Positions 4,452 through 29,982 of a DNA stretch of 35,328 nucleotides are shown piece by piece. The stretch is from contig QHCE01000091.1 in assembly GCA_003243955.1 (NCBI GenBank), positions 1 through 35,328 on the forward strand, read 5' to 3'. The first letter of the stretch is position 1. Every line of letters starts with the position of its first letter. Origin of the DNA: Acidimicrobiales bacterium (GTDB taxonomy: Bacteria; Actinomycetota; Actinomycetes; Mycobacteriales; QHCE01). A program made the position numbers and the translations under genes. The notes under the pieces are model-generated. The model was not told where the DNA came from, ran no database searches, and saw nothing but the letters and a program-made list of their open reading frames with translations.

Positions 4452-4527
4452 ATCGTCAAACGTATTGGCCGCCCCTGACATAACTGAATGATTGGAGTCA
4501 CTCGCTGTCAAACAGGAGGAAGTGCTG

Positions 4528-5784
4528 ATGCAGTCCATCACCATCAGTGCAGTGTCATCCACAGCTTGCAGTGCGAGAGCGGGCGGTCTCGTCGTACGCA
4601 CCCACGGCGTGAATGAAGCTGGGCTGCTACCGTTAATCGTGCCTACAACCACCTCTGAACACGAGCTGAGCACCGTGCCACAGACCATCGCATTTCTGGT
4701 GGGTTCGGGTGTACAGCTAGATAGCGCTGTCCGAATCACGCAGCAACTGAACCGTCCAGCGGTGGTGCTGGATATGTGGAGCGCACGGCTGCGCCAGGTG
4801 GAGCAGATGACCGTGCCAGGCCATCTGCCGCCAGTGACGCTGCGGCGGCTGATCAAAGTTGGCCGGGCCGCGGCGCGTTGGGCGCAAGCTACACCGGGCG
4901 CGGTTCTGGTAGTACCGCAGGACGTAGGTTTGGTGTATCGCCGAGCAATCGCGGCCGCTCGCCGCGCTGGGGCGGCAATTGTATTGCTCCCAGACGGTGC
5001 CGTGAGCCGGCAAAAGGTAACTAGTCGCAGTCTCAAAGGCGGACTCGTGCCACTGGTTGACCGGCTGCTCGCAGCGATTAGGGTGGTCGCCGGTAGGCAC
5101 GGGCAGATGGCCGCGTCGCGACCCGACCTGGTGCTCAGCTGGGGTCCAGCGTGGAATGAAGTGTTTCGTGCGCAGCGAGTCGGTGCAATTATCGATGTCG
5201 GTAACCCGCGCTCAGACGAACTGGCTCCCCTGGCGCCCGTCTCGCCGGGGGAGCCACGCAGGGTGTTGCTGTGTAGCCAGCCGATGGACCATGACCAGAT
5301 CGGCGGAAAGCTCGCCCAAACCGCGTGGTACGCCTTCGTGGAACACTTGGCGCTTACCGCTCCCAGTGGGGAGCTAGCGGTTCGCCTACATCCTGCCGAG
5401 CGTGATCAGCTAGAGCAGCTGCCGATCGGACCCGCTACTAAGCGCGTGCTCACCAAAGACACTTCTCTTGCCCACGACATTGGTGCTTGTGACGCGGTGG
5501 TGAGCTGGGCGTCGACCACGATGATCGAAGCAGCGGCGGCCTCGCGTGCCGTGGTTTCGGTAGGAATCAACGAGGCAGCCGCTGAGATTGCCCGCGGATA
5601 TTTCTTTCAGCGTGACCCCCGCGCGATCACGGTACTCAGCCGTGACATCGCCGACTTTGCCGCGCTGCGGGAAGTGGTGTCCCGGGCCGCGAGGCAGCAA
5701 GTGGGAATGGCGCAAGAGTACGCGGTAAACGTAGGCTCGGCAACGCAAGCTGCTGCCAAAGCGCTCAACGACTATTCGCGCTAG
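4528..5784 (+). CDS. GT-B-like capsule/surface polysaccharide transferase (CDP-glycerol or polysialyltransferase type)
   Basis: About 418 residues. An ATG at 4492 gives a longer frame, but AGGAGGA at 4514-4520 sits 7 bp before the ATG at 4528 and decides the start. The N-terminal half is Rossmann-like (hydrophobic strands VLDMWSAR, VLVVPQDVG, AIVLLPDGA). The C-terminal half begins at VLLCSQPMDHDQIGG and contains LAVRLHPAERDQLEQ and then VVSWASTTMIEAAAASRAVVSVG. This order of HP and S-x-x-x-x-E motifs is typical of CDP-glycerol glycerophosphotransferase, polysialyltransferase and UDP-GlcNAc 2-epimerase-like GT-B folds. No signal peptide or membrane helix is seen, so it is probably cytoplasmic or membrane-associated. 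It follows the polymerase/ligase and Wzz-like genes, so a role in building the same surface glycan is inferred. Donor and acceptor cannot be named. Confidence 0.6.
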   Translation: MQSITISAVSSTACSARAGGLVVRTHGVNEAGLLPLIVPTTTSEHELSTVPQTIAFLVGSGVQLDSAVRITQQLNRPAVVLDMWSARLRQVEQMTVPGHLPPVTLRRLIKVGRAAARWAQATPGAVLVVPQDVGLVYRRAIAAARRAGAAIVLLPDGAVSRQKVTSRSLKGGLVPLVDRLLAAIRVVAGRHGQMAASRPDLVLSWGPAWNEVFRAQRVGAIIDVGNPRSDELAPLAPVSPGEPRRVLLCSQPMDHDQIGGKLAQTAWYAFVEHLALTAPSGELAVRLHPAERDQLEQLPIGPATKRVLTKDTSLAHDIGACDAVVSWASTTMIEAAAASRAVVSVGINEAAAEIARGYFFQRDPRAITVLSRDIADFAALREVVSRAARQQVGMAQEYAVNVGSATQAAAKALNDYSR

Positions 5785-5851: not shown

Positions 5852-8800
5852 ATGGCACCCATGATCGCAGCTCCACCGCACTATGCCTTGGCGCGTGGTC
5901 CCGTTCGCAAGAGCAGTGCTGCCACCCTTGCGTCAGACACTGAGCAGCGGGTTGTCGTCGAGCACACGTCTGGGCCCCTTTTAGTTCTTGCTGGCCCTGG
6001 AACAGGCAAGACGAGCACGTTGTTGGCTGCTGCCGCCGCTCGTATTAACGCCGGCGTGGATCCGTCACGGTTGCTGCTACTCACTTTTGGTCGAGCGGCG
6101 GCAGCTTCGCTGCGAGACCAGCTCACCGGTGCGGTCGACCGCGTGATTACCGAACCGCTCGCACGCACTTTTCACTCATACGCATTTGGTTTGTTACGAC
6201 AGCTCGCTGCACGCCGTGGCCAGCCCGCCCCGCGACTATTGGCCGGCCCGGAGCAAGATTTGCTGATTCGGGAACTGCTTGTCGGGGATGCGGCCGGTAG
6301 GGGAGTGCACTGGCCTGCTGCGCTGCGTGGTGCCCTGCGCACCCGCGGATTCGCTACAGCGCTGCGCGATGTGCTCTCGCGTGCCTATGAGCGCGGTATA
6401 GATCCGGTGCTACTCAACCGCTGGGGAATTGAGCAGAATCAGCCGCAGTGGCGGTCGGCCGCGGCGTTCATGCAGCAATACGCGGATGTCACCGAGCTAC
6501 GAGACGCGAGCCTAGCTGAAGGAGCCTCCTACGACCCAGCGGAGCTGATTCGTGCCGCTATCACCGCGCTGCGTCGCGATCGTGAGCTACTGGCAGCGCA
6601 GCGCAGCCAGTACAGCCATGTATTCGTCGATGAGTATCACGACTGTGATACAGCACAGGAGGAACTACTCCAGCTGCTGACCGGCGGCGGCAGATTTGTG
6701 GTGGTGTTTGCGGATCCAGACCAGTCCATTTATGGCTTTCGCGGCGCCGATTCCGACTGTGTCCGTCGTTTCCGGCAGCGATTCCCCGCCGCCAGCGGCG
6801 AGCCGGCGGCTGCGGTCACGCTGCGTACCTGCCATCGCAGTGCCCGCCTTTTAGTCGAGCACACACGCAACGTAGCGAGTCGGATCAAGGGTCCGGCTCG
6901 GCACCGAGAGCTGCGGGCGTTCGCCGAAATCGATCCCTCATCGCTTAGAGGCACCGACAAAGAGTCATCTGCCAAGGCCGCAGGAGTCGCCGCCTACGAA
7001 GGTAGGCAAGGCGACGAGAACACCGGCAGGGGCTTTTTGGCGGAGCCTCCAACGCCGGCTTGTGCTGTGCACGTGGCTAGATCGACCAGCCACGAAACGG
7101 CGTTGATTACGGCCGCGCTGCGGGAAGCTCACCTCATCGGCGGCGTTGCCTGGGAATCCATGGCGGTCATTGTGCGTTCAGCCTCCCGGTCGGTGGCTAC
7201 GCTGCGGCGAGGGATGCTGACCGCTGGCATACCAGTAGCCGTTGGTCGAGCTCAGATTCCGCTAGCTGAACAGCCAGCGGTGGCACCGTTGCTTGCGCTA
7301 CTACTAGTTGCGCTTCACCCTGCCGCACTTGATGACGCCACCGCGCAGGCGCTGCTGCTTTCCGAGCTGGGGGATGCTGATCCACCAGCCCTGCGCCGGT
7401 TGCGGCGAGCACTGCGGCGCAATGCGCAATCAGCCATGCCGCCAGATGTAGAACCGGCCAGCCGATCACTGTCCACAGGGGGCCTACTCGTCGCGGCGAT
7501 TGTGGATGGAAAGCTGCTAACCGGCATCGAGCCGCGGTTGACCGCCCCACTGCGTCGAATTCGAGCGCTGCTAGAGGCAGCTCAAACAGCGGCCACCGCA
7601 CCAGGTGCTACTGCCGAGACGCTGCTCTGGTCGGTGTGGAAGGCCAGCGGTTTGCCGCAGCGCTGGCAGCAACGCAGCGCTGCGGGGGCTGTGAGCTCGC
7701 TGGCTTCCGCGGCCGATCGGGATCTGGATGCGGTGATCGAGTTGTTTGAAGCGGCCGCCGCGTTCAGCGACCGTATGCCGGGTGCTCGGCTGGAGCTGTT
7801 TATTGAGCATGTACGAGCACAACAGGTTCCCGCGGACGTGTTCAGCAACGCGCGTGCCAGCGGCTCTGGTGTGCGGCTGTTGACCGCGCATGCCGCAAAG
7901 GGGCTGCAGTGGGACGTGGTCGTGGTCGCAGGAGTTCAGGAGGGTGTTTGGCCTAATCTGCGGCTGCGCGGAGGTGTGCTAGGCGCGGCGGACCTCGTCG
8001 AGCTCGCGGCCGGTCGGTCGCAGAGCGGCGCCGCGGCGCGTGCCGCGGCATACCAGCAGCTGCTGGATGAAGAACGCCGCCTGTTCTATGTTGCCGTGAC
8101 ACGGGCACGTTGCCAACTCGTGGTCACGGCAACGCAGGACGAGGAGAATGAACCTTCGCGGTTCCTAGAAGAACTGGACCCGCGCGAGGGCATGGCCGGT
8201 ACTCGGCGAGAACACAGCGACGCCCCAGCACTGCTGACACTTTCGGCGTTGGTGGCTGAGCTCCGTCGCGAAGTTACCCAGAACGTCGTGCCCGACGCCC
8301 AGTCCGCAGAAACACAGGAAGCTATTGTCGCGCGGCGGGCCGCGGCTGCCGCGGTGCTGGCGCAGCTGTCCGCTGCTGGTGTTCCGGGGGCGGCACCGTC
8401 TACGTGGTGGGGTTTGGCGCCGTTGTCAGACCCCGCGCCGCTCATCGAGCCAAGCGCAACGGTGCCGGTATCACCATCTGCTGTGGAGACGTTCTCTCAG
8501 TGCGGGCTCCGCTGGATGCTGGAGCGTCGAGCAGGAGGCAGCCGAACATCCGGCCCAGCACAGCTGATCGGGACAGCGGTGCATGAGGTCGCCGCGGCAG
8601 GATACAGCGCGACTGGGCCGCAGCTGCTTGCGCTACTGCGAGGCCGGCTGGCTGAGCTCGACCTGGGAACAGGCTGGTACGCCCGTAGACAGCGGGAACA
8701 GGCTGAACAGATGGTAGCCAAGCTCGCCCGCTGGCTGGATGAGAACCCGCGCCGTTTTGTAGCTGTTGAACAGGCTTTCGCGGTAGACGTTGGTCGTGCG

Positions 8801-9340
8801 CGGCTGCGCGGAAGGGTGGATCGCCTGGAAGCTGACGAGCAGGGCCGGCTGTTTGTGGTGGATTTTAAAACCGGCTCCTCAGCCCCCAGCAGTGCTGAGG
8901 TTGTTATCCACCCTCAGCTAGGGGCATATCAGCTCGCGGTGTCTGAAGGCGGCTTCGACGTCGCTGCCACAGTAACTGGCTCTATGGCCGGCTCGCAAGC
9001 TGCGCCGGGCATAGGCGAAGGCGACTGCCCGGGTGCGGGTGCCCCGCGCAAGCACAGCACCGGCAGGGGCTTTTTGGCGGAGCCAGTAACTGGCTCACGC
9101 CTGTGTGGTGGGGCAGCGTTAGTGCAGTTGGGTACAGCCAAGACCGCCCGAGAACAGCTCCAGCCTTCGCTAGATCAAGCTCCAAATCCCAAATGGCCTA
9201 TAGAGCTGATAGAACAGGTGGCGCACGGCATGGCTGACGCGGTGTTTACGGCGACGGCCAACTCGGGGTGCGATCGCTGCCCGGTACGTTCAGCGTGCCC
9301 CCTGCACACCGAGCAGACCACTACAGGGCGTTTTCCCTGA
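5852..9340 (+). CDS. adnA: AdnA-like subunit of the AdnAB helicase-nuclease, with two in-frame repeat insertions
   Basis: 1162 residues: an N-terminal UvrD-like motor and a C-terminal RecB-like nuclease. Motor motifs: AGPGTGKTS (Walker A, Lys about 53), LLLLTFGRAAA, VFVDEYHDCD (motif II with His where Gln is usual), ADPDQSIYGFRGAD, LLTAHAAKGLQWDVV and VAVTRAR. Nuclease elements: FSQCGLRW, GTAVHEVAA, GRVDRLEADEQGRLFVVDFKTGS, QLGAYQLAV, and a C-terminal CDRCPVRSACP. That gives four Cys for an Fe-S staple like those of AddB/AdnA. AdnAB resects double-strand breaks in mycobacteria; AdnA precedes AdnB there too. The protein is about 100 residues longer than its mycobacterial counterpart (about 1055). 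Two insertions, at residues about 366-400 and 1040-1082, account for most of that; both are palindromic repeat elements read in frame. The last codons and stop overlap another palindromic repeat. The ATG at 5852 lacks a strong ribosome-binding site, and the ATG at 5861 is an alternative. Confidence 0.9.
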   Translation: MAPMIAAPPHYALARGPVRKSSAATLASDTEQRVVVEHTSGPLLVLAGPGTGKTSTLLAAAAARINAGVDPSRLLLLTFGRAAAASLRDQLTGAVDRVITEPLARTFHSYAFGLLRQLAARRGQPAPRLLAGPEQDLLIRELLVGDAAGRGVHWPAALRGALRTRGFATALRDVLSRAYERGIDPVLLNRWGIEQNQPQWRSAAAFMQQYADVTELRDASLAEGASYDPAELIRAAITALRRDRELLAAQRSQYSHVFVDEYHDCDTAQEELLQLLTGGGRFVVVFADPDQSIYGFRGADSDCVRRFRQRFPAASGEPAAAVTLRTCHRSARLLVEHTRNVASRIKGPARHRELRAFAEIDPSSLRGTDKESSAKAAGVAAYEGRQGDENTGRGFLAEPPTPACAVHVARSTSHETALITAALREAHLIGGVAWESMAVIVRSASRSVATLRRGMLTAGIPVAVGRAQIPLAEQPAVAPLLALLLVALHPAALDDATAQALLLSELGDADPPALRRLRRALRRNAQSAMPPDVEPASRSLSTGGLLVAAIVDGKLLTGIEPRLTAPLRRIRALLEAAQTAATAPGATAETLLWSVWKASGLPQRWQQRSAAGAVSSLASAADRDLDAVIELFEAAAAFSDRMPGARLELFIEHVRAQQVPADVFSNARASGSGVRLLTAHAAKGLQWDVVVVAGVQEGVWPNLRLRGGVLGAADLVELAAGRSQSGAAARAAAYQQLLDEERRLFYVAVTRARCQLVVTATQDEENEPSRFLEELDPREGMAGTRREHSDAPALLTLSALVAELRREVTQNVVPDAQSAETQEAIVARRAAAAAVLAQLSAAGVPGAAPSTWWGLAPLSDPAPLIEPSATVPVSPSAVETFSQCGLRWMLERRAGGSRTSGPAQLIGTAVHEVAAAGYSATGPQLLALLRGRLAELDLGTGWYARRQREQAEQMVAKLARWLDENPRRFVAVEQAFAVDVGRARLRGRVDRLEADEQGRLFVVDFKTGSSAPSSAEVVIHPQLGAYQLAVSEGGFDVAATVTGSMAGSQAAPGIGEGDCPGAGAPRKHSTGRGFLAEPVTGSRLCGGAALVQLGTAKTAREQLQPSLDQAPNPKWPIELIEQVAHGMADAVFTATANSGCDRCPVRSACPLHTEQTTTGRFP
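6947..7050 (+). repeat. Palindromic element copy A, in frame inside adnA
   Basis: The outer arms are complementary. GAGGCACCGACAAAGAG near 6948-6964 pairs imperfectly with the sequence ending CTTTTTGGCGGAGCCTC at 7049. An inner hairpin GCCTAC-GAAG-GTAGGC lies near 6992-7007. The 67-bp core (6966-7032) matches the reverse complement of 26856-26922 at about 63 of 67 positions by hand alignment. The final 27 bp (7021-7047) are identical to 9058-9084 in copy B. In the adnA frame it encodes about 35 residues with no stop, ending NTGRGFLAEP, and falls in a linker between motor motifs. Confidence 0.82.
8970..9096 (+). repeat. Palindromic element copy B, in frame inside adnA, with 13-bp direct flanking repeats
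   Basis: CAGTAACTGGCTC occurs at 8970-8982 and again at 9084-9096, exactly 114 bp (38 codons) apart, so the insertion keeps the frame. Its right end (9058-9084) is identical over 27 bp to the right end of copy A and is read in the same frame as STGRGFLAEP. A shorter match, TAGGC(G)AAGGCGAC, lies at 9012-9025 against 7003-7015 of copy A. The rest has diverged or is a different internal segment. The right junction forms a 17-bp palindrome, GAGCCAGT-A-ACTGGCTC (9080-9096). It falls in the nuclease domain between the QLGAYQLAV motif and the C-terminal Cys cluster. Confidence 0.75.
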
Positions 9341-9407: not shown

Positions 9408-9440
9408 AGAGTGGGTTTAGCAGAGCGAGGAGAGCGCAGC

Positions 9441-12400
9441 ATGGTTTCCTATTCCGCGGTTGAAGTTGCGCGGATGTTGGAGCTACCTGCTCCGACGGCT
9501 CAGCAAGCCGCGATTATCTCGGCGCCGTTGCAGCCGCTGCTTGTGGTGGCTGGAGCCGGCTCTGGAAAAACCGAGACCATGGCGGCCAGGGTTATCTGGC
9601 TCGTGGCTAACGGCCTGGTTCGGCCGGAAGAGGTTTTGGGGCTGACGTTCACCCGCAAAGCGGCCGGAGAGCTAGCCGGGCGTCTGAGTCGACGACTCAC
9701 GCAGCTTGCGGCGCGCGGCCTACTCGAGCAGACCGGGGACCCAGTAGTTTCGACCTACCACGCCTACGCGCTGCGGATAGTGGCCGAGCACGGTATACGG
9801 GCTGGCTACGAGCCGCAAGTCCAACTGTTAGGCGAAGCGGCGAGTTGGCAGCTCGTCGACGCGGTGGTGCGCGGCTACGACGGAGATATGTCATCGGTAT
9901 CCGCAGCGCCGAGCACAGTGACAACGCAGGTGCGTGACCTGGCTGCCCAGCTTGCCGAGCAGTTGCGTAGCCCCGAGGAGCTTGCGGCATTCAGCAGTGC
10001 GCTGTGCGCGCGGATCCAGAGACTGCCAGTCGGGAGCCGACCCGGTCGCGGCAGTGGCACAGTGCCGAAATTGGTGGCCGATCTCCTAGCGCGGCAGCGA
10101 TATCAGCTTCAGCTCCTGCCGCTGATATCGGAATACGCGGCACGTAAGCAGAAAGCGGAGGCAGCCGATTATGGCGATCAAGTGGCCCGTGCCGCGCGGC
10201 TTGCCCGCGACCACCCGGATGTGGGCGGCGGCGAGCGTGCGCGCTTTCGGGTAGTACTGCTCGATGAGTATCAAGACACCAGCTATGCGCAGTTACAGCT
10301 GCTGACCGCGCTATTTGGTGCGGGGCACCCGGTAATCGCTGTCGGAGATTCCTGTCAGGCTATTTACAGCTGGAGAGGTGCCAGCCCCGGCAACCTGACC
10401 CGTTTTCCGACCGACTTTCCCCGTGAAGATGGCGCCGCGGCGGAGGTGGCACCGCTGAGCACAAGCTGGCGGAACCCACCAGCAGTACTTACCGTGGCTA
10501 ATGAGCTTTCTCGGCCGTTGCGCACTGGACAAATGCCTGACCTTACTCCGGCTCCGCAGCACCACGGGAGCGGCGAAGTCCGATACGCCCTCTGCGACTC
10601 GGTGGCTGACGAAGCTGCATGGCTCGCCGCACAGCTCGCCGATATTTGGCGCGACGGCGGCGAAACACCCCCGACTGCGGCTGTGCTGCTGCGCACTCGA
10701 GCCCAGATCTCTCGATACGCCGATGCTCTCACCGCTCGTGGTATTCCAGTAGAGGTCGTCGGTGTCGGTGGCCTGCTAGAGACCGCCGAGGTATGTGATG
10801 TCATTGCCACCCTTCGGGTGCTGGTGGACCCGACAGCGGGTAGCGCGTTGCTGCGCCTACTCACGGGGGCACGTTGGCGGATCGGCCCACGAGACCTGGC
10901 TGCGCTGGCTTCTCGTGCCCACTCCCTAACTGTGGCTGATGCGTCGCTTGAGACTCATCTAGCCGTGGATGAGCCGTCCAGCATTGTCGACGCACTAGAG
11001 GACCTTGGCTCCCAGACGGCTTACTCTTCCGAGGGATACCTGCGGTTACAGATGTTGCGCGATGAGCTTCGCGAACTGCGTAAACAGCTGAGCGCGCCGC
11101 TGCCAGAATTGATCAATGCCATCGAAACCGCGATGGGAATTGGGATCGAAGTCGCAGTTCGGGAGCCTAGTTCACCCACGGTTGCGCGGGTACACCTCGA
11201 CCAACTTGCCACCGTTATCAGCGACTTTGCCAATACAGCGACGCTGGCCACCCCTTCGGCGTTGCTGGCGTATCTAGATGCTGCCGCAGATCACGAGCGG
11301 GGGCTGGCGCCTGGCAGCGTTGCGGTGCACTCCGGGGCTGTGCAGCTGCTAACGGTGCATGCCGCGAAAGGGTTGGAGTGGGATGTTGTTGCTGTTCCGG
11401 AAATCGCGAATTCGGCGTTTCCGAGCAAGGAACGCAGCTGCGGGTTATGGACAAAGAACGCGGGCGTGCTGCCGTTCGAGCTGCGCGGGGACAGTACCGA
11501 GCTTCCCAGCATGCAGCATGCAAGCGTGCAAGATCAGGTAGGCCTGGCCGCGGAACTGGCTGACGTCGAGGACCGCTGGAAGCAGCACTATCTCGCCGAA
11601 GAGCGCCGCCTGGTCTACGTTGCTGTAACTCGGGCGCGGCGAACTCTGCTATGTTCGGCGCATTGGTGGGCGCAGGGAGCAAAAAAGCCACGCGGACCGT
11701 CGCTGTTTTTGAATGAGATTGCCGAATCGGCTAAACGACTCGGAATTGAGCCGGATGTTTGGGTTCAGCCGCCGGCACCGGATGCGGGAAATCCGCTAGC
11801 TGCACAGTCACCTACCGCTGCATGGCCAGCTGATCCGCTCGGTCCGCGCCGCCCGGATATCGAGGCTGGCGCGGCGTTGGTGGTCGCTGCCGATCCCGCA
11901 AGGTTGAATGCTGCCGAGCGCTCGGCCGGCGAGGACTGGTTTGCGCGAGCCCAGTTGCTACTTGCTGAGCGCACTCGGATTGCCCAACCGAATGGTGCTC
12001 CGGTGCTGCTTCCCGACAGCATCTCGGTTTCGGAGCTGGTTGGTCTGAACCGAGATCCGGCGCAGTTCGTTGCGCAACTGCGTCGCCCGATGCCGCGACC
12101 GCCAGCTCCGATGGCTAGACGCGGAACTAGCTTTCACGCGTGGTTGGAGCGGCGCTTCGCAGTGGACCGTTTACTAGACATCGATGAGCTGCCTGGGGCT
12201 GCTGACCTGGATTCGGGCCCCGACGATGATCTGCCTGAGCTGCAACGCGCTTTTGAGGCTAGCGAGTGGGCGCGCCGCAGCCCGATGCGGGTCGAGGTGC
12301 CGTTTTCGATGACGCTTGGAGGTGTAGTGCTGCGTGGTCGGATGGACGCGGTGTTTGCCACTCCGGCGGATGCGCTATCCAACGGTGGAAACGCTACGAG

Positions 12401-12647
12401 ATCGGGATCGCCGCGCTGGGATGTGATCGACTGGAAGACCGGCGCTGTACCCACCGGCCAGGCGGCCCGGCACGTTGCGGTGCAGTTAGCGGTGTATCGG
12501 CTGGCGTGGGCCCGACTGGCCGGCGTCGCGTTAGCTGAGGTTCAGGCGGGTTTTCACTATGTGCGGGCCAATCACACTCAACGTCCGGTCAATCTGCTCG
12601 ATGAAGCTGAACTCACGCGGCTGATCACCTCACTGCCGCTGGAGTAG
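9441..12647 (+). CDS. adnB: AdnB-like subunit of the AdnAB helicase-nuclease
   Basis: About 1068 residues from the ATG at 9441, which follows GAGGAGAG; an in-frame upstream start at 9411 has no such site. The motor motifs are intact: AGAGSGKTET (Walker A, Lys about 43), LGLTFTRKAAGEL, LLDEYQDTSYAQ, AVGDSCQAIYSWRGA, LLTVHAAKGLEWDVV and YVAVTRARR. The C-terminal RecB-like nuclease shows GTSFHAWLERRF, LRGRMDAVF, DVIDWKTGA and VQLAVYRLAW, which carry the expected His, Asp, Asp-Trp-Lys and Gln/Tyr catalytic set; no Cys cluster is present. In mycobacteria AdnB is the driving motor and AdnA the partner; the fully canonical motifs here agree with that. The length is close to the mycobacterial protein (about 1100). 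It is about 100 bp downstream of adnA on the same strand and is probably cotranscribed across the repeat array. Confidence 0.92.
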   Translation: MVSYSAVEVARMLELPAPTAQQAAIISAPLQPLLVVAGAGSGKTETMAARVIWLVANGLVRPEEVLGLTFTRKAAGELAGRLSRRLTQLAARGLLEQTGDPVVSTYHAYALRIVAEHGIRAGYEPQVQLLGEAASWQLVDAVVRGYDGDMSSVSAAPSTVTTQVRDLAAQLAEQLRSPEELAAFSSALCARIQRLPVGSRPGRGSGTVPKLVADLLARQRYQLQLLPLISEYAARKQKAEAADYGDQVARAARLARDHPDVGGGERARFRVVLLDEYQDTSYAQLQLLTALFGAGHPVIAVGDSCQAIYSWRGASPGNLTRFPTDFPREDGAAAEVAPLSTSWRNPPAVLTVANELSRPLRTGQMPDLTPAPQHHGSGEVRYALCDSVADEAAWLAAQLADIWRDGGETPPTAAVLLRTRAQISRYADALTARGIPVEVVGVGGLLETAEVCDVIATLRVLVDPTAGSALLRLLTGARWRIGPRDLAALASRAHSLTVADASLETHLAVDEPSSIVDALEDLGSQTAYSSEGYLRLQMLRDELRELRKQLSAPLPELINAIETAMGIGIEVAVREPSSPTVARVHLDQLATVISDFANTATLATPSALLAYLDAAADHERGLAPGSVAVHSGAVQLLTVHAAKGLEWDVVAVPEIANSAFPSKERSCGLWTKNAGVLPFELRGDSTELPSMQHASVQDQVGLAAELADVEDRWKQHYLAEERRLVYVAVTRARRTLLCSAHWWAQGAKKPRGPSLFLNEIAESAKRLGIEPDVWVQPPAPDAGNPLAAQSPTAAWPADPLGPRRPDIEAGAALVVAADPARLNAAERSAGEDWFARAQLLLAERTRIAQPNGAPVLLPDSISVSELVGLNRDPAQFVAQLRRPMPRPPAPMARRGTSFHAWLERRFAVDRLLDIDELPGAADLDSGPDDDLPELQRAFEASEWARRSPMRVEVPFSMTLGGVVLRGRMDAVFATPADALSNGGNATRSGSPRWDVIDWKTGAVPTGQAARHVAVQLAVYRLAWARLAGVALAEVQAGFHYVRANHTQRPVNLLDEAELTRLITSLPLE

Positions 12648-25046: not shown

Positions 25047-25757
25047 GTGCGGCGCGGGTTCTGGCTTAGATTGACCGAAGTCCTCGTTCGGCCAATCGCG
25101 ATAATGATGACCAAGCGGCAGTGGCGTGGTCAAGAGCATATTCCAGCCAGTGGTCCAGCAATTCTGGTTCCTAACCATTTGTCTAACGCCGACCCATTAA
25201 TCGTGGCGCATTTCGTATTTGATCGGCCTCGAAACCCGCGGTTTCTGGCGAAAGACTCCCTGTTCACTGTACCTGTGATCGGTTATATGCTGCGGCAGAT
25301 GCACCAAATCCCCGTTCGACGCGGCACGGCGGATGCGATGACGGCGCTTAAGGCCGCGATTTCGGTGCTCGAATCCGATGAGACAGTGATCATCTACCCC
25401 GAAGGTACGTGCACGGCCGATCCGCAGCTGTGGCCGATGCAGGGTAAGACTGGGGTCGCCCGTCTGGCGCTGACCACCGGAGCGTCGGTGATCCCGATCG
25501 CGCAGTGGGGCGCCCAGCGCTTTCATAACCCGGTGACTGGGAAGATCGGGTTTCGGCCGCGAACTCGAGTGACTGTCGCGGCTGGGCCTCCAGTGGACCT
25601 AACCCGCTTCATGGATTGTCCACTCACCAACGAGGTGCTGCGTGGCGCCACTGATACCATCCTGCGGCGACTTCGTGACGATGTTGCCGCGGTGCGCGGC
25701 GAGCCAGCGCCGGTAGGTCCGTTGTTTGTACCCGCGAAAAGTCGGAGGCTGATATGA
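25047..25757 (+). CDS. PlsC-like lysophospholipid acyltransferase, second copy
   Basis: About 236 residues from the GTG at 25047. GCGGAGG lies 4 bp upstream, a better site than those of the ATG at 24993 or the longer frame that begins inside the mutase gene. Motifs: NHLSNAD (NHX4D), FLAKDSLF, YPEGTCTADPQLWPMQGKTG (motif III followed by the substrate loop) and SVIPIAQWG. The gene starts an apparent operon with gpsA (4-bp overlap) and then ddl. Placement immediately before glycerol-3-phosphate dehydrogenase supports a role in phospholipid synthesis, acylating lysophosphatidate. It differs clearly from the first PlsC at 21800, so the two are not a recent duplication. Confidence 0.88.
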   Translation: MRRGFWLRLTEVLVRPIAIMMTKRQWRGQEHIPASGPAILVPNHLSNADPLIVAHFVFDRPRNPRFLAKDSLFTVPVIGYMLRQMHQIPVRRGTADAMTALKAAISVLESDETVIIYPEGTCTADPQLWPMQGKTGVARLALTTGASVIPIAQWGAQRFHNPVTGKIGFRPRTRVTVAAGPPVDLTRFMDCPLTNEVLRGATDTILRRLRDDVAAVRGEPAPVGPLFVPAKSRRLI

Positions 25758-26839
25758 CCGGCGGCCAACGCAGGTCGCCATCGTCGGCTGATCCACTCAT
25801 CGAACCCGTGGCGCCTCCGCTACGAGTGTCGGTACTGGGGGCTGGATCGTGGGGTACCACGTTCGGCAAAGTACTCGTCGATGCTGGCTGTGATGTCCTG
25901 TTGTGGGCGCGCCGGCCCGAGATAGCACGCAGCATCGCCGCCACTGGTCGTAATCCGGATTACCTGCCCCACATCCGATTGCCCGTGGGGCTGCGTGCCA
26001 CTAGCGATTGCGCCCAGGCTATGGAACACGCCCGCGATCTGCTGGTGCTCGCGGTACCGTCACAGACTCTGCGCAGCAACATGGCGGAATGGGCACCAGC
26101 GGTAGACCCGGGCGCTGTTGTGGTCAGTTTAGCCAAGGGTATTGAGCTAGGCAGCGGCCTACGCATGAGCGAAGTTATCGTCGGAGTCTCCGGAATCGAC
26201 TTCCAGCGAGTGGCTGTGGTGAGTGGGCCCAACCTTGCCGAAGAAATTGCGCGAGAGCAACCTACAGCAACGGTGGTGGCATGTGAGGATTCAGCACGCG
26301 CTCAGCTAGTCCAGCGTGCCTGCACGACTAGATACTTACGCCCCTACACCAATCCCGACATCGTCGGATGCGAACTTGCTGGCGCGATGAAGAACGTCAT
26401 CGCGCTCGCCTGCGGAATTGTCTCGGGCATGAAGTTGGGAGACAACGCCACCGCGTCGGTGATCGCACGCGGTTTGGCGGAGATCACCCGTCTTGGTCAC
26501 TTGCTGGGTGCTGACCCGATGACGTTTGCGGGCTTGGCTGGGCTGGGTGATGTGGTGGCGACGTGCTATTCGCGGCTGTCGCGCAACCGCGGGTTCGGGG
26601 AGCTGCTGGGACGTGGCCAGAGCATGAGCCAAGCGCAGCTGCGTAACCCTCAAGTGGTGGAAGGGGTGACGTCTTCGCTTGCCGTGCGGGATTTGGCGCT
26701 GCGGCTGGGAGTAGATATGCCGCTGACCGATCAAATCGTGAAGATCTGCCACGAAGACGCTACCCCAGCGCAGGCGTTCGATGAGCTCATGGCTCGTAAG
26801 CCGCAGGCAGAGTTCGGCATTGTTTCGATGCAGTACTAA
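25754..26839 (+). CDS. gpsA: NAD(P)-dependent glycerol-3-phosphate dehydrogenase
   Basis: 361 residues. After a 22-residue polar leader comes the Rossmann motif VSVLGAGSWGTTFGKVL (GxGxxG type). VVSLAKGIE, SGPNLAEEIAREQPTA, ELAGAMKNVIALACGIVSGM (catalytic Lys of the KN motif) and TFAGLAGLGDVVATCYSRLSRNRGFG then follow, all in GpsA order. It reduces dihydroxyacetone phosphate to sn-glycerol 3-phosphate for phospholipid synthesis. The start codon overlaps the upstream plsC stop by 4 bp (ATGA), so the two are coupled. The stop codon is the first bases of a palindromic element (26838-26940) that separates it from ddl. The leader before the Rossmann fold is somewhat long, and a later start is possible. 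Confidence 0.96.
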   Translation: MTGGQRRSPSSADPLIEPVAPPLRVSVLGAGSWGTTFGKVLVDAGCDVLLWARRPEIARSIAATGRNPDYLPHIRLPVGLRATSDCAQAMEHARDLLVLAVPSQTLRSNMAEWAPAVDPGAVVVSLAKGIELGSGLRMSEVIVGVSGIDFQRVAVVSGPNLAEEIAREQPTATVVACEDSARAQLVQRACTTRYLRPYTNPDIVGCELAGAMKNVIALACGIVSGMKLGDNATASVIARGLAEITRLGHLLGADPMTFAGLAGLGDVVATCYSRLSRNRGFGELLGRGQSMSQAQLRNPQVVEGVTSSLAVRDLALRLGVDMPLTDQIVKICHEDATPAQAFDELMARKPQAEFGIVSMQY

Positions 26840-26940
26840 ACGCCCGCCAATAGGTCCCCTGCCAGCGTTCTCGTCACCTTGCCTACCTTCGTAGGCGGCG
26901 GCTCCTGCGGCCTTGGCAGATGCACTATTGGTGGGCGTTT
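26838..26940 (-). repeat. Palindromic element copy C, between gpsA and ddl
   Basis: The terminal inverted repeats are AAACGCCCGCCAATAG (26838-26853) and the complement of AAACGCCCACCAATAG (26925-26940), 15 of 16 matching. Between them, read on the minus strand, is a 67-bp core (26856-26922) differing from copy A in adnA at about 4 positions, with an inner hairpin GCCTAC-GAAG-GTAGGC. The left terminus overlaps the gpsA stop codon. As RNA it would fold into one long branched hairpin, so it may also affect gpsA-ddl expression. Confidence 0.82.
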
Positions 26941-28338: not shown

Positions 28339-29982
28339 CTAGCGCCGCCCGGTTCGTTGCCCTGTACGTGTCGCTCCTGTGAAAGGAGCCCCCGGCACTG
28401 GCACTCCTCTGGGCGATTGCCGTGCTGCGCTCTGAAACCCTGCCAGGGCAGGGGGTAGTTGCCCACCACCTCGCGCAGTAGCAGGGGACGGTGATGAGGG
28501 TTGCGTCGGCGGGCGCCCCGCTGCCTCCCGCAGCTGGGCGGCGTTGCTTTCCAGGGCTGCTATTTGTTGATTTACACGTACTTCCGTCTCATCGCGGCCT
28601 TGGAGCCAACCTCTCACTTCCCGAAATTTCTTTAGCGCTAATTCGTTCCGAGGTCCCGTTCCGTGGATACCAATTGCCTTATCCATTTCTAATTTCTCTA
28701 CTGCTAAATTTATGTAAGTTCGAGCCGAGTTAATATCGAGCTGATCCAGCCTTCCTGAGGGTACTCCGACTAGTACTCCGAACTCTCTAGTTAGCTCTTT
28801 AGACCTCGCGATAATTTCCGCGTCAGCTTCTTGTCGACCTGTTTGAGTTGATGCCCGATAGCTTTCCAGTCCTTCCTCAAGAGTATCAAGGCTATTATTG
28901 ACATAAATCTCGTGGGCTTGACGCTCGCGGTATTTCCTTAGACCTGGAAGCACGAGCTTAACTGCCCCATATACTAGTGCCGCCGCCACAAGTGGGGGGG
29001 CAAGGAAAGCACCAATCCCAGCCGCAGCACCTGTAGCAGCGGCGGCTGGGATACCCACACTATGTGCTAGGCCTATTGCCGCACCTGAGAGTAAACCGCC
29101 GACGGTTCCCGGGGCTACAGCCGTGAAGGCGGCGGCCCCCATTCCAACCATGGCTCCTGTACCGGGGAACAGGTTGTCCCGAAGCCTCGTAGCCTCCGCC
29201 CCCGCCGGTATGACGCGGTTATCGGAACCTGGATGTGGGGGAAATGCTGTCTCCCCCGCCGAAACTTCAGATTGGGCTCCGGGTGCCGCCGCAGGAGTAG
29301 CAGTTCCGGCTGGCCCTGGAGCCGCAGTCTCCGGGGCCGGGGGACGCGACACGTTGAGCGCAGCTGCTTGCCTTGCCGGCAGCCTTTCAAGAAGGCCCTG
29401 TGCCGTGGTGAAATTGACGAGATTACGGCTCGCAGTATCTTGGTTCAACTCTTCCAAAGCTGATGTATTCAGCTGATCGACGGCTTCTTGCACTCTGGGA
29501 AGAGCAGCCTCTAGTCTACTACTTTCAATAGCATCGGCTATTCTGGATAGGTTTGTAGGATCATCAAGCTCAGCGGCCGATGTACGCAATAGTTCCATAC
29601 TAGCCGCATCCCCTGCGGAATCAGCAACTCTACTTAGTGCATCAAGGTATTGTCTGAGTGCAAACCTATACTGAATAGCAACAGCTTGATCGGCTTCCCT
29701 CTGTGTAGCTAAAGCAGTATCCGAAATTGGGGTAGGAGCTACAACACTCCTTTCCCTTGCTATCCGGTTTTGCTCCTCACTCGTTCTCCTTCGTTGAAGT
29801 TGCTGGAATGCCTCTCTCCGTTTCGTAACTTGCGCAGCTGCTATGGACAATTCCGCGAGTAATGTATTCCATTCTTGTGCCTTGCTCACCGCTTCCACTC
29901 GTTGTCTAGTGGCTCGTATTAAAGCCTCTTCCTGAAGACTGTCAGGAAACACGTCTGCGGGAAAGGGAAGGGGAGTCGTCAT
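28339..29982 (-). CDS. Large coiled-coil protein with a central glycine/alanine-rich hydrophobic segment, function unknown
   Basis: 547 residues that I cannot assign to a family. Visible layout: heptad-like, highly charged helices at about 15-130 and 140-205; a Pro/Ala/Gly-rich linker at about 210-245; a hydrophobic Gly/Ala-rich segment at about 275-346 (GAMVGMGAAAFTAVAPG, AAATGAAAGIGAFLAPPLVA), long enough for two membrane passes and rich in small residues like a glycine zipper; a second helical region at about 347-490; then a Ser/Pro/Arg-rich tail. No signal peptide. Its ATG overlaps the TGA of the upstream 209-residue gene by one base (TGATG) and is preceded by AGGAG, so the two are coupled. 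Codon use is more AT-rich than the flanking core genes. A membrane-inserting effector, a toxin or a secretion substrate are possibilities only. Confidence 0.72.
   Translation of the reverse strand: MTTPLPFPADVFPDSLQEEALIRATRQRVEAVSKAQEWNTLLAELSIAAAQVTKRREAFQQLQRRRTSEEQNRIARERSVVAPTPISDTALATQREADQAVAIQYRFALRQYLDALSRVADSAGDAASMELLRTSAAELDDPTNLSRIADAIESSRLEAALPRVQEAVDQLNTSALEELNQDTASRNLVNFTTAQGLLERLPARQAAALNVSRPPAPETAAPGPAGTATPAAAPGAQSEVSAGETAFPPHPGSDNRVIPAGAEATRLRDNLFPGTGAMVGMGAAAFTAVAPGTVGGLLSGAAIGLAHSVGIPAAAATGAAAGIGAFLAPPLVAAALVYGAVKLVLPGLRKYRERQAHEIYVNNSLDTLEEGLESYRASTQTGRQEADAEIIARSKELTREFGVLVGVPSGRLDQLDINSARTYINLAVEKLEMDKAIGIHGTGPRNELALKKFREVRGWLQGRDETEVRVNQQIAALESNAAQLREAAGRPPTQPSSPSPATARGGGQLPPALAGFQSAARQSPRGVPVPGAPFTGATRTGQRTGRR

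Follow-up and report, generated by a model that had tools for sequence, protein, structure and literature searches.

The window analysed here, a stretch of 35,328 nucleotides, carries on its + strand an open reading frame (5852..9340) whose domain matches, a UvrD-type helicase and a PD-(D/E)XK nuclease, identify the product as AdnA, and which is adjoined by an AdnB-like gene at 9411-12647. Three near-identical 16-bp repeats, TTTTCCCTGAAAACGT, the third of them degenerate, lie between 9331 and 9404, at the adnA stop and before adnB; they are possibly a regulator site. Two further long open frames of the window, at 4492-5784 and 28342-29982, have no Pfam match at E<=1e-5.

The adnA gene is host to two repeats, copy A and copy B, both on the + strand. 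Copy A (6946..7051), delimited by BLAST and by the alignment of copies, is a full-length element that reads [TA]GAGGCACC...GGAGCCTC[CA], and the covariance model R1 (see below) matches it at 6960-7038. Its TA-to-CA distance of 104 bp is not a multiple of three, and copy A therefore needs a further indel. Copy B (8983..9083) aligns as the remnant of a long-form element, with long third and fourth hairpins, whose 5' half is missing. It is flanked by two 13-bp direct repeats, CAGTAACTGGCTC, at 8970-8982 on the + strand (with a TA at 8973-8974) and at 9084-9096, spaced by exactly 114 bp; the right repeat, with a TA at 9087-9088, forms part of the right junction GAGCCAGTAACTGGCTC (9080..9096), an odd palindrome with 8-bp arms and one central base. 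The 3' tip of copy B, CACCGGCAGGGGCTTTTTGGCGGAGCC (9058..9084, + strand), is identical over 27 bp to positions 7021-7047 in copy A, and the peptide TGRGFLAEP is read twice in the adnA frame, both times in one common frame. The direct repeats with their spacing, the palindromic junction, the shared 27 bp and the common frame had been described in the original prediction and are present in the sequence; as for the extent of the relationship, however, the shared 27 bp are only the 3' tip of an element of about 104 bp at copy A. A third copy (26841..26937, - strand), recognized as a match of the R1 model, is antisense to the glycerol-3-phosphate dehydrogenase gene (25754-26839) and lies directly after the stop of that gene.

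Copy B is a genuine insertion in AdnA. AdnA-like genes are present in 24 of the 25 genomes searched, the host genome included, and the loci of 19 relatives were tried, of which 11 yielded a usable protein by our motif filter and eight did not. In the nuclease domain, where the original prediction had proposed a comparison with relatives, the insert is missing in all 11 readable proteins, which pass from YQLAV..GGF to GGA via a short loop. At the site of copy A, the 10 relatives covering that site all have a shorter loop. The solved AdnA structure 7sjr_A has five residues (968-972) at the position of copy B, versus 49 (1037-1085) in the host protein, and 48 residues (302-349) at the position of copy A, versus 98 (306-403).

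A dispersed hairpin with a conserved core

BLAST searches of the host genome gave 51 matches to the element resembling copy A and 24 to copy B, far beyond chance. A covariance model, R1, built from 32 copies from the host genome and from Frankiales MAGs, gave 64 matches in the host genome at E<=1, of which 61 also reach E<=0.024. Copy B, which is truncated, is not among the R1 matches; its 3' part aligns with five long-form copies (C49, C66 (two), C33 and C71), and it begins in the middle of their third hairpin, without their 5' part. The earlier view that the two insertions in AdnA are hits of one family, on the same strand and in the same frame, and that they derive from a dispersed element, was thereby borne out. 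We had considered that copies A and B might represent two separate repeat families, and dropped this because the alignment reveals one core with short or long hairpins. We likewise discarded the idea that the host genome has a pool of hairpins with these arms but no core: the pattern AGAGCGN{8,38}CGCTCT occurs there at six places, each counted once though matched on both strands, versus 11 in the reversed control. At L026 (1408-1580) and L053 (1501-1690) two copies stand in tandem, partly degenerate.

The element is about 100-170 bp in size and forms a long hairpin, in which pairing terminal arms (P1) enclose a conserved internal loop and covarying inner stems (P2 and P3). The aligned copies have the core AAGGCCGCAGGAGCCGCCG, followed by a hairpin and then CAAGGCGACGAGAACGC, and are closed by CTGCC/GGCAG or CTGGC/GCCAG; in the long forms the third hairpin is enlarged and a fourth is present. 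The internal loop has GCAAGGC on one side and AACGC[C/A]GC on the other, and is kept even where lineages differ in their arms and inner stems. The long outer arms differ between copies yet stay complementary, so that nearly all copies possess terminal inverted repeats (helix 1 is paired to 83.1% and helix 2 to 96.4%). When the structure, with 19 pairs, was tested on 32 sequences, 94.1% of the cells were paired, compared with 75.2% in shuffled sequences and at most 48.1% in slid versions of the structure. Furthermore, the number of double-change cells was 115 versus 37.2 in the shuffles, and the covariation score 0.500 versus 0.160. Searches with the Rfam covariance models returned no family at gathering score and only weak listings below threshold. 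Lower in the long stem, copies of the genus g120, for example the one at L227 near the core, have another internal loop, GTAGCGAGC / GCGCAGTAG, that also seems conserved.

Judged by sequence matches, Frankiales MAGs also contain the core, as do several families of Actinomycetes. The exact 20-base core was found at 24 loci in the named genome collection. The remainder of the motif is present at the core loci of Frankiaceae BP_195 and BP_197 and of Frankiales LS_FP_2_bin.126; it is missing at those in Planctomycetes, Massilia, Streptomyces, Rhodococcus and others, which we therefore regard as chance matches. Covariance model matches occur in at least five of the 397 genomes of the order, with at least 10 and at least eight in the one-contig genomes G156 and G273, respectively; these are lower bounds, since scoring was restricted to 11 candidates per genome. 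The reduced pattern GCAAGGCN{36,60}AACGCMGC is noisy, with at least one match in 261 of 394 genomes; 22 of the 394 have at least 10 matches, whereas the control never exceeds six in any genome. The pattern is found 40 times versus 0 for the control in G439, 28 versus 1 in G428 and 25 versus 4 in G611, and its counts range from 0 to 25 within one genus. The matches were examined singly in four genomes, and some of these are chance matches too. In G156 (L112, 1000-2190; C1, about 131.9-133.0 kb), four 196-bp units, each composed of one intact motif and one degenerate one, stand in tandem directly beside a CRISPR-like repeat array. In G273 (L113, L118, L121, L124, L126, L129 and L135), the motif is located within a longer dispersed palindrome of about 230 bp that ends near AGCYTGTCTGTG/CACAGACAGCTT.

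Ends, empty sites and reading frames

Evidence that the element has moved comes from another genus, g120, the genus of the host being represented in the collection by this one genome. At L227, G557 and G611 carry the element and six aligned congeners have an empty site, which in G512 and G595 is also apparent as a continuous BLAST span. In G521 and G467, longer gaps separate the two flanks. At L234, G611 carries the element, and the site is empty in five congeners that were aligned. G611 has it at L230 too, where G530 has other sequence, without the element. In the cleanest cases, full g120 copies end CTAGGGKGTGTC...GACACMCCCTAG. The empty L227 sites L239 and L242 read AACTAGAGCG, from which the other empty sites differ by a few bases; the CTAG in this sequence is common to two convergent stop codons, and CTAG is found at several empty g120 sites. 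In the host genome, a TA is present at the left P1 end of 28 and at the right P1 end of 33 of 52 copies, within a window of 4-5 positions; many copies have no TA at one end. ISY100 and IS630 are described as inserting at TA with a 2-bp duplication, and the title of a reference given in the same source names CTAG as preferred by IS630 (PMC2170065). Because the TA and CTAG ends match this mode of insertion, the element may be read as being of the IS630 type.

When 19 bases were added on each side, 36 of 53 host copies were open in sense frame 0 and just as many in frame 2, compared with 19 in frame 1. Genes were called by a simple open-frame heuristic, for these frame counts as well as for the orientation counts given below; 22 of 62 places were called inside a frame, and many of these frames are short and doubtful. 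The peptide SAKAAG[A/V]A[A/T]Y[E/G]GRQGDEN is common to copy A in AdnA, a ribonucleotide reductase, an MFS transporter and a GNAT acetyltransferase, and the reductase and AdnA contain the stretch SSAKAAGAAAYEGR. In the ribonucleotide reductase, where the copy measures 99 bp (a multiple of three) from TA to TA, 35 extra residues (237-271) stand between the adjacent residues 239 and 240 of 5im3_A. In both the transporter and the acetyltransferase, the start codons of which are predicted, the peptide lies near the N-terminus. An antisense copy is read in a ThiF-rhodanese protein, within the linker that joins the two domains. For the two hits in AdnA, either selection for a tolerated frame or a spreading mechanism within the gene had been proposed. 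The former is plausible, because the frame is shared with three other proteins; the latter is not needed.

Origin of copy B and alternative readings

Taken together, we consider it fairly probable that copy B derives by decay from a non-autonomous palindromic mobile element (MITE) that inserts at TA and depends on a putative IS630/Tc1-mariner-type transposase acting in trans. Such an element would insert at TA, often within CTAG in one genus, and would most likely be cut and pasted by the putative transposase. Many copies lie beside stop codons, a place that offers TA and where an insertion is of little harm. A few in the host genome would have come to rest in frame, in protein loops, linkers or N-termini, since as a rule two of the three sense frames contain no stop. 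AdnA would have been hit twice, and copy B would then have lost its 5' half, leaving a tolerated insert of 114 bp, or 38 codons; we infer that the host proteins are made and working.

The direct repeats around copy B had been interpreted as a target-site duplication. On the one hand, they contain the TA at which most copies end; on the other hand, what adjoins the left repeat is the middle of the element and not its 5' end. Because of this border, the 13-bp repeats would represent either a target duplication followed by loss of the 5' part or, partly, an element end. Duplications of 13 bp are not typical of the family, most copies having only TA at their ends; one other host copy, L030, lies between direct repeats, 9 bp long (CGCTAAACG). 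It is possible, though we lean away from it, that the repeats are instead two element starts, a tandem or palindrome-corrected remnant consisting of an element end, TA and an element start, and not a plain target duplication. This possibility concerns the direct repeats only and is compatible with the MITE explanation. In its favour, GAGCCAG-TA-ACTGGCTC can be read as an element end that runs directly into an element start, and without TVTGS the loop of copy B would be seven residues long, nearer to that of the relatives. However, there is no trace of a second element past 8 bp, and a target duplication with loss of the 5' half takes fewer events.

A plain DNA MITE does not explain the class-wide conservation of the internal loop and the covarying inner stems, nor does it explain a strand signal that we observed in the arms. 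G.T pairs exceed A.C pairs on one strand in five of seven groups (24:1 in Frankiales, 61:15 in g120, 28:2 in G439, 13:1 in G273 and 14:3 in G428), and by 160 to 42 overall, although the p-value of this excess is too strong because the copies within a group are related. The arms show no such bias in G156 (6:7) or in the host genome (14:13), where the count supersedes one of 66:14 into which the inner stem, with its shared T.G pair, had been counted. In addition, orientation relative to genes looks non-random in the host genome and in Frankiales. An antisense gene end lies at the right (3') side of 29 of 57 host copies, versus a sense gene end at the left (5') side of 16 and both in nine, and the Frankiales copies (n=14) have an antisense gene end at the 3' side in 12 cases versus two at the 5' side; in g120 (n=13), a gene stop lies at the 3' side in seven cases versus six at the 5' side. 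The conservation of the core, the G.T bias and the stop-side orientation fit a plain MITE poorly, and the folded strand may therefore have a role.

One way to accommodate these observations is that the element is foremost a functional structured RNA, such as a terminator, a processing site or a protein-binding hairpin at gene ends, that has been copied about, with the core under selection and the AdnA copies as strays. We regard this as unlikely. Besides the conserved loop, the covarying stems, the strand-specific G.T excess and the placement beside stop codons, it would be favoured by sites that, by eye, are apparently common to Frankiales MAGs (L072/L083 and L074/L089). Against it stand the pattern counts of 0 to 25 in one genus, the sites that are empty in congeners and the lack of strand bias in P1 of the host genome. 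Moreover, the strand that folds lies antisense to the adjoining gene, and so the mRNA of that gene would not contain the fold. This antisense position had also led us to consider an integron attC site as a candidate. A somewhat more doubtful proposal is that of a class-wide mobile family in which the conserved single-strand fold is a working part for mobility, for example as a self-processing or protein-binding RNA or single-stranded DNA; we know of no bacterial example of a structured-RNA mobile element of this kind.

Less probable again is movement of the element as RNA or as folded single-stranded DNA, in the manner of a bacterial SINE, of REP/RAYT or of an integron, for which the fold of one strand would be required. 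The strand-specific pairing and the orientation bias would agree with this, as would the intact 3' end and missing 5' half of copy B, and the strand with the bias folds more stably in 13 of 13 g120, six of six G439 and five of five G428 copies. The same strand, however, folds better in only one of five G156 copies and 33 of 52 host copies, and TA/CTAG ends with long terminal inverted repeats suit a DDE transposon. Finally, we reject as highly improbable a local duplication by slippage or gene conversion inside adnA, which would have brought the 27-bp end of copy A into the nuclease domain: the exact 27-mer does occur at these two places only, the outcome that the original prediction had named as favouring a local duplication, but this count, true at zero mismatches, is misleading because full-length relatives with few mismatches are many, and the remainder of copy B matches the C49, C33, C66 and C71 copies, not copy A.

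Relation to known elements

Coding-tolerant palindromic elements are best known from Rickettsia. The element described here is an actinobacterial case that involves at least four host proteins, two of which (AdnA and ribonucleotide reductase) are central to DNA metabolism and one of which was hit twice. As its core is present in several families of Actinomycetes and absent from Rfam, describing it would give a name to a repeat of many genomes; literature searches, limited to openly accessible papers, listed no report of the motif. The filled and empty sites are a ready set to measure mobility, and the element could show whether a DNA transposon can include a conserved RNA-like fold. If a family that uses its fold as a working part is indeed involved, that family also donates peptides to host proteins.

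The catalytic internal loop of the twister-sister ribozyme has a GCAAGG strand, which resembles the GCAAGGC of the element. We rejected this identity: there is no Rfam match at gathering score, twister-sister is not among the weak matches listed, and the AACGC[C/A]GC strand is without a conserved C-A step, the step at which the ribozyme is described as cleaving (PMC11620745).

NEMIS/Correia elements, ERIC and other bacterial MITEs are described as dispersed hairpins, some fused in frame and some RNA-processed (PMC2229807), and are like our element as dispersed hairpins, by description rather than by sequence. The element shares the generic traits of MITEs: it is short and multi-copy, has terminal inverted repeats and filled and empty sites (three g120 loci), and the inspected copies have no transposase gene and carry hairpin insertions only. 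RUP of pneumococcus has its origin in IS630. It is 107 bp long (PMC2229807), and with such IS630/Tc1-mariner MITEs the element has in common the terminal inverted repeats, the TA at the ends of many copies and the lack of coding capacity. It differs in that its terminal sequences vary between copies yet remain complementary, its inner fold is conserved, and its parent IS is putative.

Rickettsia palindromic elements (RPEs), as they are portrayed in the sources used here, are palindromic, dispersed and about 100-150 bp long, and are read in frame, as a recurring peptide, in conserved proteins that are unrelated to each other (PMC10969869, PMC2229807). The likeness to them is one of behaviour, RPE sequences apart: our palindromic dispersed element lies in frame, with a shared peptide, twice in AdnA and in the ribonucleotide reductase, the MFS transporter and the GNAT acetyltransferase, and antisense in the ThiF-rhodanese protein. 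On the other hand, Rickettsia belongs to another phylum, the copies described here are mostly at gene ends, and they have a non-palindromic conserved internal loop that is common to families of Actinomycetes. RPEs are the nearest known elements in behaviour, and IS630-type MITEs such as RUP the nearest in build.
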